This document shows positions 8,068 through 64,000 of a stretch of 64,000 nucleotides of DNA, piece by piece (position 1 is the first letter of the stretch; each line of letters opens with the position of its first letter). The DNA lies in contig NZ_CP011479.1 in the NCBI RefSeq assembly GCF_001011155.1, positions 762,501 through 826,500 of the forward strand, written 5' to 3'. The notes under the pieces were generated by a model. It did no database searches. It was not told the DNA's origin and saw only the letters and a program-made list of their open reading frames with translations. The translations under genes and the position numbers were made by a program. The DNA comes from Hoeflea sp. IMCC20628. GTDB lineage: Bacteria; Pseudomonadota; Alphaproteobacteria; Rhizobiales; Rhizobiaceae.

Positions 8068-8430
8068 TCACCCCGTTTTCCGCGCGATCATTAGCTCAAC
8101 CCGTTTAAGCTCGCGAAGAATCCTGTCCGCCTGCATTTGCGGCATCAGGCTGGTCTTGAGGATGGTGGCGACAATCATCAGCGTTGCGGAGGGAACTCCC
8201 CATTTCAGCGCGGTCAGCACATCGCTTGCTGCGAAGAAATGCCAGCCGGTCCAGACAGCCAGACCGAACAGCGCGATCTGAACGATCATGATGACCCATG
8301 ATACCCAGCCGAGCTTGCCGGTGAACTGGCTGGCGCCAAGCGCAAACCAGCCCAGTTCCTTCGTCTCACGCAGGATATCGTCGTCTTGTTCGGAGAGGGC
8401 TTCCTCAATCAATCGGTCAAGTTTACTCAT
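8068..8430 (-). CDS. DUF6768 membrane protein paired with ECF sigma factor
   Basis: A 120-residue protein with a cytoplasmic N-terminal helix (MSKLDRLIEEALSEQDDD), two membrane segments (about residues 43-62 and 68-92) and a basic C-terminal helix (RILRELKRVELMIAR). It resembles DUF6768. Its start overlaps the stop of the upstream sigma-factor gene by 8 bases, which implies translational coupling. That arrangement is usual for membrane anti-sigma factors, but there is no zinc anti-sigma HxxxCxxC motif, so the regulatory role is only inferred from position. Confidence 0.7.
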   Translation of the reverse strand: MSKLDRLIEEALSEQDDDILRETKELGWFALGASQFTGKLGWVSWVIMIVQIALFGLAVWTGWHFFAASDVLTALKWGVPSATLMIVATILKTSLMPQMQADRILRELKRVELMIARKTG

Positions 8431-8974
8431 CTGGGATTCCTTTCAGGGCTTTGTTCAGTTTGGTTCGTGCATGCATCAGCCGCGTCTTGATGGTTCCGAC
8501 CGGCACATCCAGCGAGATGGCAACTTCGGCGACGCTCATGTCTTCAAGATAGAACAGTGAAATCGCGGCGGCCTGTGCAGGCGGCAGTGTCTTGATGGCC
8601 TGGCGTACGGCATGGGCGTCGGCAGCCGCGGATGCAGATTCGGCGATGCTCACATCGTCCACTGCCGCCACATCCGCGGCATGACGGCGGCGTTTGATAT
8701 TGGCAGCAATGATGCGCGCGGCGCGCCGGGTGACGATCCGGTAGGCCCAGGCCGGAAATGCCCGGTCATCGTGCAATCCCTTGAGACCCTTGAGGATCTC
8801 GATCCAGGCGTCCTGCATGGCATCCTGCGCGTCGTCGCGATTGCCCAGCAGCCGGTAGGCGTGACGCAACAGTCCAGGGCCACGCAACGCCGCCAGCCTG
8901 GCTATGGCCTTGCGATCGCCCAGCCGCGCGCCAGCCACCAGATATTCCTCGACAATGTTTTCGGTGCTGCGCAT
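8423..8974 (-). CDS. ECF-type RNA polymerase sigma factor
   Basis: A 183-residue sigma-70-family protein of the two-domain ECF class. Region 2 covers residues about 20-95 (LLRHAYRLLGNRDDAQDAMQ, PAWAYRIVTRRAARI). Region 4 covers about 125-178 with the helix-turn-helix LEDMSVAEVAISLDVPVGTI. It would direct polymerase to its own stress or envelope regulon. It heads a two-gene unit with the DUF6768 membrane protein, the likely candidate for its control. An ATG 6 codons upstream (8992) is an alternative start. Confidence 0.88.
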   Translation of the reverse strand: MRSTENIVEEYLVAGARLGDRKAIARLAALRGPGLLRHAYRLLGNRDDAQDAMQDAWIEILKGLKGLHDDRAFPAWAYRIVTRRAARIIAANIKRRRHAADVAAVDDVSIAESASAAADAHAVRQAIKTLPPAQAAAISLFYLEDMSVAEVAISLDVPVGTIKTRLMHARTKLNKALKGIPDE

Positions 8975-9073
8975 CCAGGCTTTCCTTGTCACGGACGCTA
9001 CATGGTGGCGTCAGATGACAATCCGGTTCAATGGCCGACCGAATAATTAGATTACCGAGTGGAAATGCAGCGC

Positions 9074-9193
9074 AAAAAAAATGGGCCTCGAGATTGCTCT
9101 CGGGCCCAATAGGTATGAAGGTCAAAAACCTCCAGAGGGGAACAGCTCATGCGGCGACACTGGGAGGAGTAGGCCGCCATGTATGCATCAGCT
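9074..9193 (-). ncRNA. CUCCUCCC-motif sRNA (ar14/cuckoo type), copy 1
   Basis: About 120 nt. A promoter with TTGCGC (9223-9228), a 17-base spacer and CATATC (9200-9205) predicts a 5' end near 9193. The RNA has a 6-bp stem GGCGGC/GUCGCC whose loop exposes CUCCUCCC (9162-9169), complementary to Shine-Dalgarno sequences. It ends in a strong hairpin (9083-9107) followed by eight U. These traits match the alphaproteobacterial ar14/cuckoo family, which is thought to pair with ribosome-binding sites of mRNAs. Ends are inferred, not mapped. Confidence 0.78.
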
Positions 9194-9280
9194 ATAAGCG
9201 ATATGGTGCTTTATTGGGCATTGCGCAAGGGATTGATGCGCATGGCAGCCATGTGAATACTGCATGCTTAAAGTATAGCG

Positions 9281-9400
9281 CAAAAAAATGGGCCTCGAGA
9301 TTGCTCTCGGGCCCAATAGGTATGAAGGTCAAAAACCTCCAGAGGGGAACAGTTCATGCGGCGGCACTGGGAGGAGTAGTCCGCCATGAATGCATCAACT
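9281..9400 (-). ncRNA. CUCCUCCC-motif sRNA, copy 2
   Basis: Same architecture shifted by 207 bases: -35 TTGCGC (9430-9435), -10 CATATG (9407-9412), CUCCUCCC at 9369-9376, terminator hairpin 9290-9314 and a seven-base U-run. A substitution turns the G-U pair of the first stem into G-C, while the loop motif is unchanged. The promoter -10 is slightly different, so expression may differ from copies 1 and 3. Confidence 0.77.
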
Positions 9401-9487
9401 GTGAGCCATATGGTGCTTTATTGTGCATTGCGCAAGGGTTTGATGCGCAGGGCAGCCATGCGAATACTGCATGCTTAAAATATAGGG

Positions 9488-9607
9488 CAAAAAAATGGGC
9501 CTCGAGATTGCTCTCGGGCCCAATAGGTATGAAGGTCAAAAACCTCCAGAGGGGAACAGCTCATGCGGCGACACTGGGAGGAGTAGGCCGCCAAGTATGC
9601 ATCAGCT
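9488..9607 (-). ncRNA. CUCCUCCC-motif sRNA, copy 3
   Basis: Third copy: -35 TTGTAC (9637-9642), 17-base spacer, -10 CATATC (9614-9619), CUCCUCCC at 9576-9583, terminator hairpin 9497-9521 and U-run. The sRNA body is nearly identical to copy 1, whereas the sequence upstream of the -35 is the most diverged of the three. Confidence 0.77.
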
Positions 9608-9767
9608 ATAAGCGATATGGTGCTTTATTATGCAATGTACAAGGGAGCGGTGTGCATGTCAGCCATGCAATTACTGCATAGCTGACGGATTTTGGAGCAA
9701 CGAGCCATGCAGTGGTCTTTGCTGTTGCTTCAACTGATCGTTCTGGTGCTGTGTAAGCGGGCGTGCC

Positions 9768-10667
9768 CTAATAGTTCCAGGTGCGCGCCTTGGAGATGAG
9801 AAAATCCCGGAAGGCCTTGAGTTTGGCGGCGTTTTTCATCTCTTCGGCATAGCAGAAATAGGTGTCGAAGGTCGGAATGTCGGCCGTGATGTTGAGTTGC
9901 ACAAGATCCAGATCGCGATTGATCATATAATCAGGCAGCAGCGAAATGCCTGCGCCGTTGAGCGTGGCACGCCGGACCGCCGGCAAATTGTTGATCTGCA
10001 AATGCGCCATGCGCAGATTATCCGGTGTGCGACCGGCATGCTCGAGCCAGTTCACATCCATCAGATAGGCCGGAGCCGGTTCGCCAAAGGTGATGATTCG
10101 GTGATTGTCGAGGTCCTCGATGGTCTTGGGCTCGCCGTGACGGGCAATATAGGCCGGCGAGGCATAGACATGCAAGTGCACGGTGAACAGGCGGCGCTGG
10201 ATCAGATCGGGCTGCTGTGGCAGGCGCAGCCTAATGGCGCAGTCGGCCTGGCGCATATTGACGTCGAGTTCTTCATTGTCGAGCAGCAACTGCACCTGGA
10301 CATCGGGATAAAGCGCTTGGAATTCCTGCACTTTTTCTGTGAGCCAGCCCTGGCCGAAGCCGACCGTGGTGGTGACGCGCAATTTACCCGAGGGCCGTTC
10401 GCGGGTTTCGGTGAGCCGGTTTTTCACCGATTCGAGCTTCATCAGCACTTCATGCGCTGTCTGGTAGAGGATTTCCCCCTGCTCGGACAGGATCAGGCCC
10501 CGGGCATGCCGGTGAAACAGCTTGGCGCCGATGTCCATTTCAAGGGCGGAAACCTGGCGGCTGATCGCCGATTGCGACAGATGCAGTTTCTCCGCCGCGT
10601 GGGTGAATGACCCGGCTTCGGCAGCCGCATGAAAAATACGCAGTTTATCCCAATCGAGTGGCACCAA
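9768..10667 (-). CDS. lsrB: LysR-family regulator, LsrB/VtlR type
   Basis: A 299-residue LysR protein. The winged helix-turn-helix is at residues 4-62 (WDKLRIFHAAAEAGSFTHAA, LSQSAISRQVSALE) and the co-inducer domain at about 95-295. The sequence and its position just downstream of trxB match LsrB of Sinorhizobium/Agrobacterium and VtlR of Brucella, which act in oxidative stress, LPS and symbiosis or virulence, and in sRNA and small-protein control. Cysteines at 143 and 272 are possible redox residues, as redox cysteines are reported for LsrB. It lies 51 bases from trxB and is probably co-transcribed. The tandem sRNAs lie 160 bases beyond its 3' end. Confidence 0.85.
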   Translation of the reverse strand: MVPLDWDKLRIFHAAAEAGSFTHAAEKLHLSQSAISRQVSALEMDIGAKLFHRHARGLILSEQGEILYQTAHEVLMKLESVKNRLTETRERPSGKLRVTTTVGFGQGWLTEKVQEFQALYPDVQVQLLLDNEELDVNMRQADCAIRLRLPQQPDLIQRRLFTVHLHVYASPAYIARHGEPKTIEDLDNHRIITFGEPAPAYLMDVNWLEHAGRTPDNLRMAHLQINNLPAVRRATLNGAGISLLPDYMINRDLDLVQLNITADIPTFDTYFCYAEEMKNAAKLKAFRDFLISKARTWNY

Positions 10668-10718: not shown

Positions 10719-11693
10719 CTATTCTGCGGCTTCAGCCTGTCTGACATGTCCTGCCAGAAAACGTTCGGCCTCCAAAGCTGCCATGCATCCCATGCCAGCG
10801 GCAGTCACCGCCTGGCGGTAGATGTCGTCGGTCACGTCGCCGGCGGCGAAAACGCCCGGGACATCCGTGGCAGTTGAATCCGGTGCTGTCCACAGATAGC
10901 CGTTGGATTTGTGCTTTAGCTTGTCCTTGAACAGGCTGACCGCGGGAGCATGGCCGATGGCGACGAACACGCCGTCAATCGGCATGTCGCTGATATCGCC
11001 GGTCTTGCGGTTCTTGAGTCTGACGCCGGTGACAGACGCAGGCATCGGTTTTTGCGCCGGGGTCCCCAGATACTCCACCACTTCCGTGTCCCAGATGACA
11101 TCGATGTTGGGCTTGTCGAACAACCGCTGCTGCAGGATCTTTTCAGCGCGAAACCCGTCGCGGCGGTGGATTACAGTCACCTTGGCTGCGAGATTGGACA
11201 GGTACAGCGCCTCTTCGACAGCGGAATTTCCGCCGCCGACAACCACGACGTTCTTGCCGCGATAGAAAAAACCGTCACACGTGGCGCAGGCTGAAACGCC
11301 AAAGCCCATGAATTCCTTTTCGGTCGGAATGCCCAGCCATTTGGCCTGCGCACCGGTGGCGATGATCAGTGCGTCGCAGGTCCACACCGCGCCGGAATCG
11401 GTTGTCACGGTAAATGGCCGCGCTGTCATCTCGACATTTGTGACCAGGTCGTTGACGATTTCCGCACCGACATGCTCGGCCTGTTTGAGCATCTGTTCCA
11501 TCATCCAAGGACCTTGCACCGGATCGGCATAGCCCGGATAGTTTTCCACGTCGGTGGTGATCATCAACTGGCCGCCTTGCTCCATGCCGGCGATCAGAAC
11601 CGGCTGAAGCATGGCACGCGCGGCATAGATCGCGGCGGTGTAACCGGCGGGGCCGGAGCCAATGATAAGAACGGGAACATGGCGAGTGGGCAT
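10719..11693 (-). CDS. trxB: Thioredoxin-disulfide reductase
   Basis: A 324-residue low-molecular-weight thioredoxin reductase. It has the FAD motif GSGPAGYTAAIYAARA, the redox-active CATC in SACATCDGFFYRG, the NADPH-binding GGGNSAVEEALYLS and the second FAD motif AAGDVTDD near the C-terminus. It transfers electrons from NADPH to thioredoxin in the cytoplasm. The frame is open to 11789, but the family N-terminus begins at MPTRHVPVLIIGSG (11693). It heads a likely trxB-lsrB unit and is divergent from lrp. Confidence 0.95.
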   Translation of the reverse strand: MPTRHVPVLIIGSGPAGYTAAIYAARAMLQPVLIAGMEQGGQLMITTDVENYPGYADPVQGPWMMEQMLKQAEHVGAEIVNDLVTNVEMTARPFTVTTDSGAVWTCDALIIATGAQAKWLGIPTEKEFMGFGVSACATCDGFFYRGKNVVVVGGGNSAVEEALYLSNLAAKVTVIHRRDGFRAEKILQQRLFDKPNIDVIWDTEVVEYLGTPAQKPMPASVTGVRLKNRKTGDISDMPIDGVFVAIGHAPAVSLFKDKLKHKSNGYLWTAPDSTATDVPGVFAAGDVTDDIYRQAVTAAGMGCMAALEAERFLAGHVRQAEAAE

Positions 11694-11972
11694 GGAAAGA
11701 TCCTGGAACACATGTTGCGAGGGGCCAGCTTGAGCCATCCTCAATGGCGCATCAATGGTGAAAGCCCGCATTTTTGCGGCTGACGTCACTGCGCATTCGA
11801 AGTGACCCCCATTTAGGTGTGGGCAGGCATTGGTTTCAAGCTTATAGGCACGTTACGCACAGAACTTCGCACAGATACCCTGTTGAGGCTTTACAGGGGC
11901 TGTCACTCACGCAATAAAGTTTCGTCATCCTCGCCTCGATGCGGGGTGGCGTGCCGGTAACAGGAAGAGCCA

Positions 11973-62707: not shown

Positions 62708-62784
62708 GGGCCTGTAGCTCAACTGGTTAGAGCCGTCCGCTCATAACGGATTGGTTGGGGGTTCGAGTCCCTCCGGGCCTACCA
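62708..62784 (+). tRNA. tRNA with CAU anticodon, probably tRNA-Ile2
   Basis: 77 nt with encoded CCA. The acceptor GGGCCTG pairs with CGGGCCT (G-U at the first pair). The D-arm is GCTCAACTGGTTAGAGC, the anticodon loop CTCATAA gives CAU, and the T-arm is GGGGG-TTCGAGT-CCCTC. CAU is read as Met, initiator Met or, after lysidine modification, Ile (AUA). The stem pattern resembles alphaproteobacterial tRNA-Ile2, but elongator Met is not excluded. Confidence 0.85.
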
Positions 62785-63023: not shown

Positions 63024-63104
63024 TGACGTCAGCGCCCGTGGGACAGATTTGAGGATTTGAACAACGGAGGATTTCTGGTTCATCTTACCGATTGGGAGAT
63101 CGAG

Positions 63105-63479
63105 ATGAGACAGAAGCCTGAAACATCGAAGAACGCAGCTGACAAGCTGGTCAAGAACATCCGCCGCAAGACCCGCCAGACCTATTCAGCGGAGGAAAAA
63201 ATCCGTATCGTTTTGGCGGGTTTGCGTGGAGAGGAAAGCATCTCGGTGCTGTGCCGCCGCGAAGGTATCGCCGAAAGCCTGTATTACAGCTGGTCGAAGG
63301 AGTTCCTGGAAGCAGGCAAGCGCCGGCTCTCGGGTGACACAGCACGGCAAGCGACGTCGCCGGAAGTAAAGGACCTTCGCTCTGAAGCCTTGGCGTTGAA
63401 GGAATGCGTCGCCGATCTGACCCTGGAGAACCGCCTGCTCAAAAAAAGCATGACAGGTGCTGGGGAGGACGAGGCATGA
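63105..63479 (+). CDS. IS3-family transposase OrfA
   Basis: A 124-residue OrfA with a helix-turn-helix of the IS3/transposase-8 type (about 25-75, TYSAEEKIRIVLAGLRGEES, REGIAESLYYSWSKEFLEAG) and a C-terminal leucine-zipper coiled coil (LRSEALALKECVADLTLENR). It binds the element's ends. ATG 63105 has a GGGAG site. Its stop overlaps the start of OrfB in ATGA, which points to coupled reinitiation rather than the usual frameshift fusion. Confidence 0.88.
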   Translation: MRQKPETSKNAADKLVKNIRRKTRQTYSAEEKIRIVLAGLRGEESISVLCRREGIAESLYYSWSKEFLEAGKRRLSGDTARQATSPEVKDLRSEALALKECVADLTLENRLLKKSMTGAGEDEA

Positions 63480-64000
63480 GATACCCTGCGACCGAGAAGC
63501 TTGAGATCATTCGCACGGTCGAAGGATCGCACCTGCCAACCAAGCAGACCCTCGATATGCTGGGCATACCGCGCACCACTTTTTACAGATGGTATGATCT
63601 TTACCTCGACGGTGGGGTTGTTGCCTTGGATGATCGGTCTCCACGGCCGAAGTCGGTCTGGAACCGTATCCCCCAAGACCGGCGTGATGACCTGATTGAG
63701 TTCGCGCTGGAACACGAGGCGCTGACGACCCGGGAGCTGGCAGTCAAATACACTGATGAGAAGCGGTATTTTGTCTCTGAATCATCGGCTTATCGTATCC
63801 TGAAGGAAGCCGATTTAATCACCGCACCGGCCTATGTGGTGATCAAGGCAGCCAATGAGTTCAAAGACAAAACTATCGCCATCAATGAGATGTGGCAGAC
63901 CGACTTCACCTACTTCAAGATCATCGGGTGGGGCTGGTATTACCTCAGCACGATCCTGGACGATTACAGCCGCTACATCATCGCCTGGAAGCTTTGCACA
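63476..64000 (+). CDS. IS3-family transposase OrfB, partial
   Basis: 175 codons read to the right edge with no stop. The N-terminal helix-turn-helix includes LDMLGIPRTTFYRWYDLYLD; the rve/DDE integrase core starts with NEMWQTDFTYFKI (first catalytic D) and LSTILDDYSRYIIAW. The second D and the E lie outside the window. It overlaps OrfA by 4 bases. Confidence 0.88.
   Translation, partial: MRYPATEKLEIIRTVEGSHLPTKQTLDMLGIPRTTFYRWYDLYLDGGVVALDDRSPRPKSVWNRIPQDRRDDLIEFALEHEALTTRELAVKYTDEKRYFVSESSAYRILKEADLITAPAYVVIKAANEFKDKTIAINEMWQTDFTYFKIIGWGWYYLSTILDDYSRYIIAWKLCT

Follow-up and report, generated by a model that had tools for sequence, protein, structure and literature searches.

The window, i.e. 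the whole stretch of 64,000 nucleotides of Hoeflea sp. IMCC20628 DNA analysed here, contains three direct repeats of 207 nt, which start at positions 9075, 9282 and 9489 (spacing 207 and 207), with the array ending at 9695. In plus-strand order the second repeat is 93% and the third 88% identical to the first. A covariance scan returned one full-length minus-strand match per repeat to the Rfam family ar15 (RF02345, AbcR), with E ~1e-18 and scores of 95.2-96.2 bits against a gathering cut-off of 40, covering model positions 1-112; three lower overlapping matches from the same clan were dropped from the array listing. Each match corresponds to a 117-nt AbcR/ar15 sRNA gene on the minus strand, denoted copy A (9491..9607, 95.3 bits), which lies nearest lsrB, copy B (9284..9400, 96.2 bits) and copy C (9077..9193, 95.2 bits), which lies farthest from it. 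When the whole genome (5.12 Mb, 3 contigs) was searched with ar15 at E ≤ 0.001, the array copies were the only three matches. Repeat mapping and the ar15 matches thus bear out the three minus-strand sRNA genes with an exact 207-bp period described in the first-pass annotation. The span given there, 9074-9682, holds as a three-unit array but ends too early, as the repeat runs on to 9695.

The same annotation placed the units in the ar14/cuckoo family, to which NfeR1 belongs and with which they share the CUCCUCCC loop motif. This placement is not tenable: the best Rfam family is ar15/AbcR, and a search of the organism's own genome with the ar14 model (RF02344) gave no match at the array locus at E ≤ 0.001. 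The model instead matched three other places, all on contig 1 (positions 1868597 and 1602970, with 95.1 and 92.2 bits, and position 3110358, below threshold at 37.3 bits). The architecture is likewise different, the two strong ar14 genes having three CCUCCUCCC loops apiece and the array units one such loop together with the AbcR GUUCCC motif. Published ar14/cuckoo RNAs (SmelA075/A099, PMC3927594) resemble the units in their CCUCCUCCC-type anti-Shine-Dalgarno loop, but they carry several such loops per RNA, belong to another covariance model and occupy other loci in this genome. Taken together, the ar15 matches and the own-genome ar14 search rule out an ar14/cuckoo identity with near certainty.

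The upstream neighbour on the same strand is a gene for a LysR-type regulator (9768..10667, minus strand; Pfam HTH_1 and LysR_substrate), the lsrB/vtlR orthologue and probable activator of the array. The protein shares 94% identity with its counterpart in Hoeflea alexandrii DSM 16655, 98.7% with that of the same-genus genome G010, and 77% with orthologues from a Sinorhizobium and an Agrobacterium. Its cysteines 142 and 271 are invariant in 5 of 5 aligned sequences; two cysteines, to which Cys 142 and 271 may correspond, are described in PMC8844928 as important for the activity of S. meliloti LsrB. The next gene (10719..11789, minus strand; Pfam Pyr_redox_2) encodes a pyridine nucleotide-disulphide oxidoreductase and sits where trxB is found in the known abcR locus, the name trxB resting on position and family. 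The resulting order, trxB-lsrB-abcR, corresponds to the trxB-vtlR-abcR order reported for Agrobacterium in PMC7486931, and places the array beside lsrB/vtlR and trxB, in the AbcR location of the Agrobacterium type. On the downstream side the locus departs from S. meliloti and Agrobacterium, which have an ArsR gene where family searches place an ECF sigma factor gene here (8423-8992, minus strand), followed by a DUF6768 gene (8068-8430, minus strand). These two genes (8068-8992) share an 8-base overlap immediately downstream of the array, and are possibly a sigma factor and its partner. Elsewhere in the window (63057-64000, plus strand), two overlapping frames resemble by eye the helper and integrase genes of IS3-type elements. 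They just follow a tRNA gene (62708-62781) and a short frame that looks acyltransferase-like, and the start context GGGAGGACGAGGCATG found at 63463 in this region occurs 14 times among the 100 genome matches listed.

RNA architecture and upstream elements

The three RNAs fold at -45.9 to -47.8 kcal/mol with z-scores of -5.05, -4.09 and -4.85, and for every copy 0 of 200 shuffles folded as well. The architecture is common to all copies, comprising hairpin 1 with CUCCUCCCAG, a GUUCCC linker, a second hairpin and a G+C-rich terminator hairpin followed by a U-run at the RNA 3' end. The two motifs that define AbcR RNAs in PMC5461406, M1 (CUCCCA) and M2 (GUUCCC), lie at the expected places in all three copies, i.e. 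in the loop of hairpin 1 and in the linker between hairpins 1 and 2, and are identical across them. In single-sequence folds the three bases on either side of the loop pair, giving a short UAC/GUG extension that lies partly outside the M1 motif. Conservation was assessed in an alignment of 32 sequences, hand-picked from the loci at hand and including the three window copies: the stretch of 17 nt surrounding M2, CTGTTCCCCTCTGGAGG, does not vary in any of the 32, and 8 of the 29 predicted pairs have both sides changed in at least one sequence. One such change falls inside the window, where a basal-stem pair is U-A in copy B and C-G in copies A and C (alignment and pair table).

Putative promoters could be read directly upstream of each copy on the minus strand, namely CTTGTA-N17-CCATAT for copy A (9615..9643) and CTTGCG-N17-CCATAT for copies B (9408..9436) and C (9201..9229), with the CCATAT element 7 nt upstream of the RNA start. 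Their two elements match the alphaproteobacterial form CTTGAC-N17-CTATAT quoted in PMC8844928 at 4/6 and 5/6 positions. The promoters partly fit the RpoH1 form CTTGAA-N16-CCTATAT, quoted in the same source, as well, so that either sigma factor may use them. Putative intrinsic terminators, each a 3' hairpin with U-run recognised from fold and sequence, lie on the minus strand at 9489..9522 (copy A), 9282..9315 (copy B) and 9074..9108 (copy C). Generic E. coli-type scans missed all of these elements: the promoter scan gave 2 promoter-like sites elsewhere against 0.9 expected, and the terminator scan gave 0 terminator-like sites. The earlier description of three anti-Shine-Dalgarno-type sRNA genes, each with a promoter and terminator of its own, nevertheless stands as a prediction from sequence.

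Every copy is also preceded on the minus strand by a predicted LsrB/VtlR box. Relative to the consensus GCAT-N3-TG-N3-T given in PMC7486931 and PMC8844928, the boxes of copy A (GCATGGCTGACATGC, 9654..9668, -61 to -47) and copy B (GCATGGCTGCCCTGC, 9447..9461) are exact, and that of copy C (ACATGGCTGCCATGC, 9240..9254) has one mismatch, at the first base. The offset is the published one, as the LsrB box of S. meliloti abcR1 is placed at -61 to -49 in PMC8844928, where its removal is reported to cause a >22-fold loss of promoter activity. All three copies therefore have the box of an abcR1-type gene, with activation by LsrB predicted, and none has the boxless upstream region of an abcR2-type gene.

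The array is thus like the S. meliloti AbcR1/AbcR2 locus described in PMC3712013 and PMC8844928, with which it shares the ar15 family, the tandem position beside lsrB, a box at -61 (there at abcR1) and both CUCCCA and GUUCCC. It differs in that S. meliloti has two copies, of which the second, abcR2, is reported in PMC8844928 to carry no LsrB motif and to depend on RpoH1, whereas the three copies here are all boxed, one with a mismatch. Likewise, the order trxB-vtlR-abcR1-abcR2 and the binding of VtlR to the abcR1 promoter link the array to Agrobacterium tumefaciens (PMC7486931). There, however, two copies are present, and VtlR activates abcR1, while the abcR2 promoter was used as a non-specific competitor.

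Boxes and copy number in related genomes

The occurrence of the box was followed in the best 80 of 275 lsrB relatives. On either strand, an exact box was found in 65/77 first copies, 7/28 second copies and 5/5 later copies. The exact forward box lay at -61 in 57/110 and at -62 in 2/110 copies, and nowhere else in 110 nt; 0 of 22,000 shuffled upstream regions fitted it at the fixed offset. These counts refer to copies with a complete 5' end, 24 of the 134 nhmmer copies in the 80 loci being excluded because they start after model position 3; among those 24, none fits the box at -61/-59, and within 3 bases two first copies are exact and one has one mismatch. Neither the Martelella-like second copies (L054-L059, L061 and L063, the last with an incomplete 5' end) nor those of Sinorhizobium/Ensifer (L060, L064, L068, L080, L100 and L106) have a box within one mismatch and a 3-base shift. 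Exact boxes do occur in 4/4 extra copies of the named Hoeflea loci, in 2/3 of Ferirhizobium, and in the Rhizobium extra copies of L072, L088, L097 and L117 and the third copy of L096; in Metarhizobium extra copies the exact box occurs once at -61 and once shifted by one base. We read this as suggesting two routes of abcR expansion, one boxed and one unboxed. In the window copies and L040-L119, moreover, the box forms part of a 15-bp inverted repeat that is imperfect, GCATGNC-W-GNCATGC, with its centre at -54. At least 5 of its 7 mirrored positions match in 72/77 and at least 6 in 40/77 first copies, against a background of at least 6 in 0.55% of 4,928 places. The published LsrB/VtlR box may accordingly be better described as one face of this repeat.

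Copy number varies within the genus. A search of 18 genomes, with up to 118 candidates scored per genome, gave 1, 2, 3 and 4 abcR copies in 8, 3, 3 and 1 of 15 good genomes, respectively, after three genomes had been set aside: G006, which is 77% complete and has no match; G007, at 75% completeness with 1 match; and G012, which shows 9% contamination and whose 2 matches lie on two contigs. Collapse in draft assemblies may hide copies; the single-contig genome G001 has one ar15 match. Two censuses with stricter filters, the counts of which are consequently lower bounds, found a match in 37 of 61 genomes (29 above the cut-off) and in 46 of 297 genomes (18 above the cut-off, 12 candidates scored per genome). 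Outside the genus, an Rfam scan of 20 chosen loci revealed three copies in L096 and L109 and four in L108. In the best 80 of 275 lsrB loci nhmmer detected 1, 2, 3 and 4 copies in 31, 45, 3 and 1, although it is less sensitive than the covariance model, as seen for the second copy of L115 (22 bits with nhmmer, 61 with Rfam).

An lsrB tree of 18 rows (the 15 genomes and 3 outgroup loci, with outgroup copies counted at this locus only) requires at least 5 changes between single and multiple copy states. A tree of 32 units joins copies B and C as sisters (support 99/98) and unites all three window copies with a support of only 67/82. The three copies of G004 also group together (59/87), and for five other genomes a single clade of own copies is neither shown nor rejected (p-AU 0.14 to 0.56). 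Copy C differs from copy A at 1 nt in the RNA and 24 in the upstream 90 nt, and from copy B at 5 nt in the RNA and 9 in the upstream 90 nt, with copies A and B having 28 upstream differences; in the RNA, copy B is thus set apart from the other two by 5-6 nt. The RNA and upstream parts thus disagree on which copies are closest, a pattern such as recombination between the repeats would give.

Predicted targets and the reading of the triplication

The loop exposes UCCUCCCAG, and the complement pattern CTGGGAGGA-N4-10-ATG has 17 matches in the genome as compared to 1 for the reversed pattern. Once two sites antisense to abcR had been dropped and one double start codon merged, 14 distinct sites with the 9-nt loop complement ahead of a start codon remained outside the array. 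Seven of these begin DctP genes (PF03480, TRAP receptor), while a Peripla_BP_4 gene and a dehydrogenase E1 gene, possibly pdhA, account for one site each. The other five lead into short frames of 9-90 aa, the one of these that was scanned having no family, and may for that reason be no gene starts. A site was counted as DctP if the Pfam match begins within 320 nt, using the 25 of 26 DctP matches in the genome that lie on contig 1. Strong ribosome sites may simply be commoner in front of receptor genes, and GGGAGGA sites without CT, the two AbcR-specific bases, were accordingly taken as the fairer control. Among the matches listed, 2/70 such sites were DctP as compared to 7/14 (Fisher 2e-5), or 2/85 before deduplication (Fisher 7e-6); here 100 of 107 GGGAGGA matches were listed and 85 lacked CT, and the figure of 70 leaves out 1 double start as well as 14 repeat copies that are identical. 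An unrelated Shine-Dalgarno control, AAAGGAGA, gave 1/33 (Fisher 4e-4) from 35 contig-1 sites out of 40, two of them merged, and replaced a first control pattern with 5 sites. Since some of its frames look ABC-receptor-like by eye, enrichment is claimed for DctP only.

A replicate in other genomes of the genus, comprising 28 loci from 259 matches in 17 genomes, yielded 25 frames of at least 100 aa that were scanned. They comprise 6 DctP proteins, 3 ABC-type and 2 TctC receptors, 4 dehydrogenase E1 proteins, 1 BCCT transporter, 7 members of other families and 2 without a family. The dehydrogenase E1 gene (possibly pdhA) has the CTGGGAGGA start context in the organism's own genome and at four other same-genus loci (L139, L184, L186, L189 and L209 in all), and may thus be a target in central metabolism that AbcR has kept across the genus. 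Predicted duplex energies with the M1 stretch ranged from -17.9 to -27.6 for nine candidates and from -7.9 to -18.9 for 19 control genes with frames of at least 105 aa, hand-picked from 30 loci, a contrast that is partly circular because the candidates were chosen by motif. The CCC of the ar14 loops precedes AAA, GAG or CCG, and the CT context thus suits AbcR better than ar14. M2 gave four gene-start matches, three antisense to the array itself and one elsewhere. Predicted target sites per genome, in a count that retained double start codons and abcR-antisense sites, did not rise with copy number (Spearman -0.21, p 0.45, 15 genomes).

In combination, these observations make it most probable that the array is a tandem triplication of an LsrB-controlled abcR1-type gene, with apparently redundant copies that would set the amount of AbcR. 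Judging from orthologues, the LsrB/VtlR protein encoded next door would bind the -61 box of each copy and activate three separate promoters, and every copy would yield nearly the same 117-nt sRNA, probably bound by Hfq. M1 and M2 would then pair with solute-receptor mRNAs at the ribosome-binding sites and reduce the translation or stability of these mRNAs, as is known for AbcR elsewhere, and we infer this Hfq-dependent repression for Hoeflea also. The copies look redundant, and their main effect would be on the amount of AbcR available while LsrB is active; the copy-number variation and mosaic copies suggest that the array grows and shrinks through recombination between repeats. The first-pass annotation had suggested either dosage or condition-specific expression. 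Dosage is favoured, because the pairing motifs are identical and LsrB boxes precede all three copies. What has been multiplied is the boxed abcR1-type unit itself, and this speaks for a larger supply of the same RNA rather than for condition-specific expression, which has no sequence support in the array. Counted against the triplication model are the box mismatch of copy C, the resemblance of the promoters to the RpoH1 form, the 67/82 clade support and the single M2 gene-start match outside the array; the dosage idea also gains no support from the predicted target number, as this does not rise with copy number.

It is quite conceivable, though on balance doubtful, that the triplication reflects neutral copy turnover, a transient outcome of recombination between repeats that brings no selected benefit. 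The single copy in 8 of the 15 good genomes, the repeated changes on the lsrB tree and the lack of relation between copy number and predicted target number all agree with such turnover. Conversely, most extra copies are not visibly decaying, as judged from the exact boxes in all four extra copies of the named Hoeflea loci and from mostly intact RNA motifs, a clearly altered M1 loop being found in one Hoeflea copy among those compared. This copy, copy 1 of L026 (1048-1163) and one of three AbcR copies in G016, has AGGCCTCCCAG rather than ACTCCTCCCAG in the 5' half of the M1 loop, perhaps with changed targets as a result.

Specialisation of the copies, with separate promoters answering different conditions as for S. 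meliloti AbcR1 (LsrB) and AbcR2 (RpoH1), appears improbable. The different inputs of the S. meliloti tandem copies described in PMC8844928 offer a precedent, the upstream region of copy A is the divergent one of the three, and the box of copy C is imperfect. However, the three copies share the box offset, a near-identical core promoter and both M1 and M2, and the array is unlike the Sinorhizobium- and Martelella-type loci, in which the second copies have no box within one mismatch. Read-through between copies into a longer composite RNA with targets of its own, in the manner of PrrH from PrrF1-PrrF2 of Pseudomonas aeruginosa, would fit the tandem layout described in PMC4211561, but is very unlikely given the strong hairpin and U-run that close each copy and the spacer lengths that vary between relatives. 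Finally, the plus-strand 216-aa frame across the repeats (9031-9681) stays open through all three units, 207 being a multiple of 3, and has a Protoglobin match, but a repeat protein gene is ruled out for practical purposes by the lack of frame conservation in six other same-genus arrays, in which only 2/10 spacings are divisible by 3 and the antisense frames interrupted by stops differ, and by a Pfam score of 20.2 bits under the cut-off of 25.

With the triplication of a boxed abcR1-type gene as the preferred reading, the array represents a known RNA, a known regulator and a known locus, and what is new is the unusual boxed triplicate and its labile copy number. Multi-copy siblings such as Qrr or PrrF (PMC4211561) similarly have several related sRNA genes per genome, often with shared targets, but their RNAs and regulators are unrelated to AbcR and LsrB. 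The one fresh lead is the predicted TRAP-centred AbcR regulon. A link between AbcR and TRAP transporters was not found in the open-access papers examined: the word TRAP is absent from the main text of PMC8844928, the TRAP- or DctP-like words in passages of PMC5461406, PMC3484140 and PMC5928217 are dCTP, trap column and ion trap, and two further papers in which both terms occur proved to be chance matches. Hoeflea and AbcR were not found together as whole words in the open-access papers searched, a search that spellings with AbcR1 or AbcR2 only would escape. We tentatively suggest, as a rather unlikely but specific proposal, that Hoeflea AbcR may chiefly restrain TRAP transporters, in place of ABC importers, with LsrB setting the level of receptors for organic-acid-type uptake and lineages tuning the brake through gain or loss of boxed abcR units. 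If true, the TRAP receptor link would widen the AbcR target class. The tandem abcR locus can expand through duplication of an LsrB-controlled unit instead of the addition of a differently regulated AbcR2, and the natural series of 1-4 copies within one genus provides a setting for tests of sRNA dosage.
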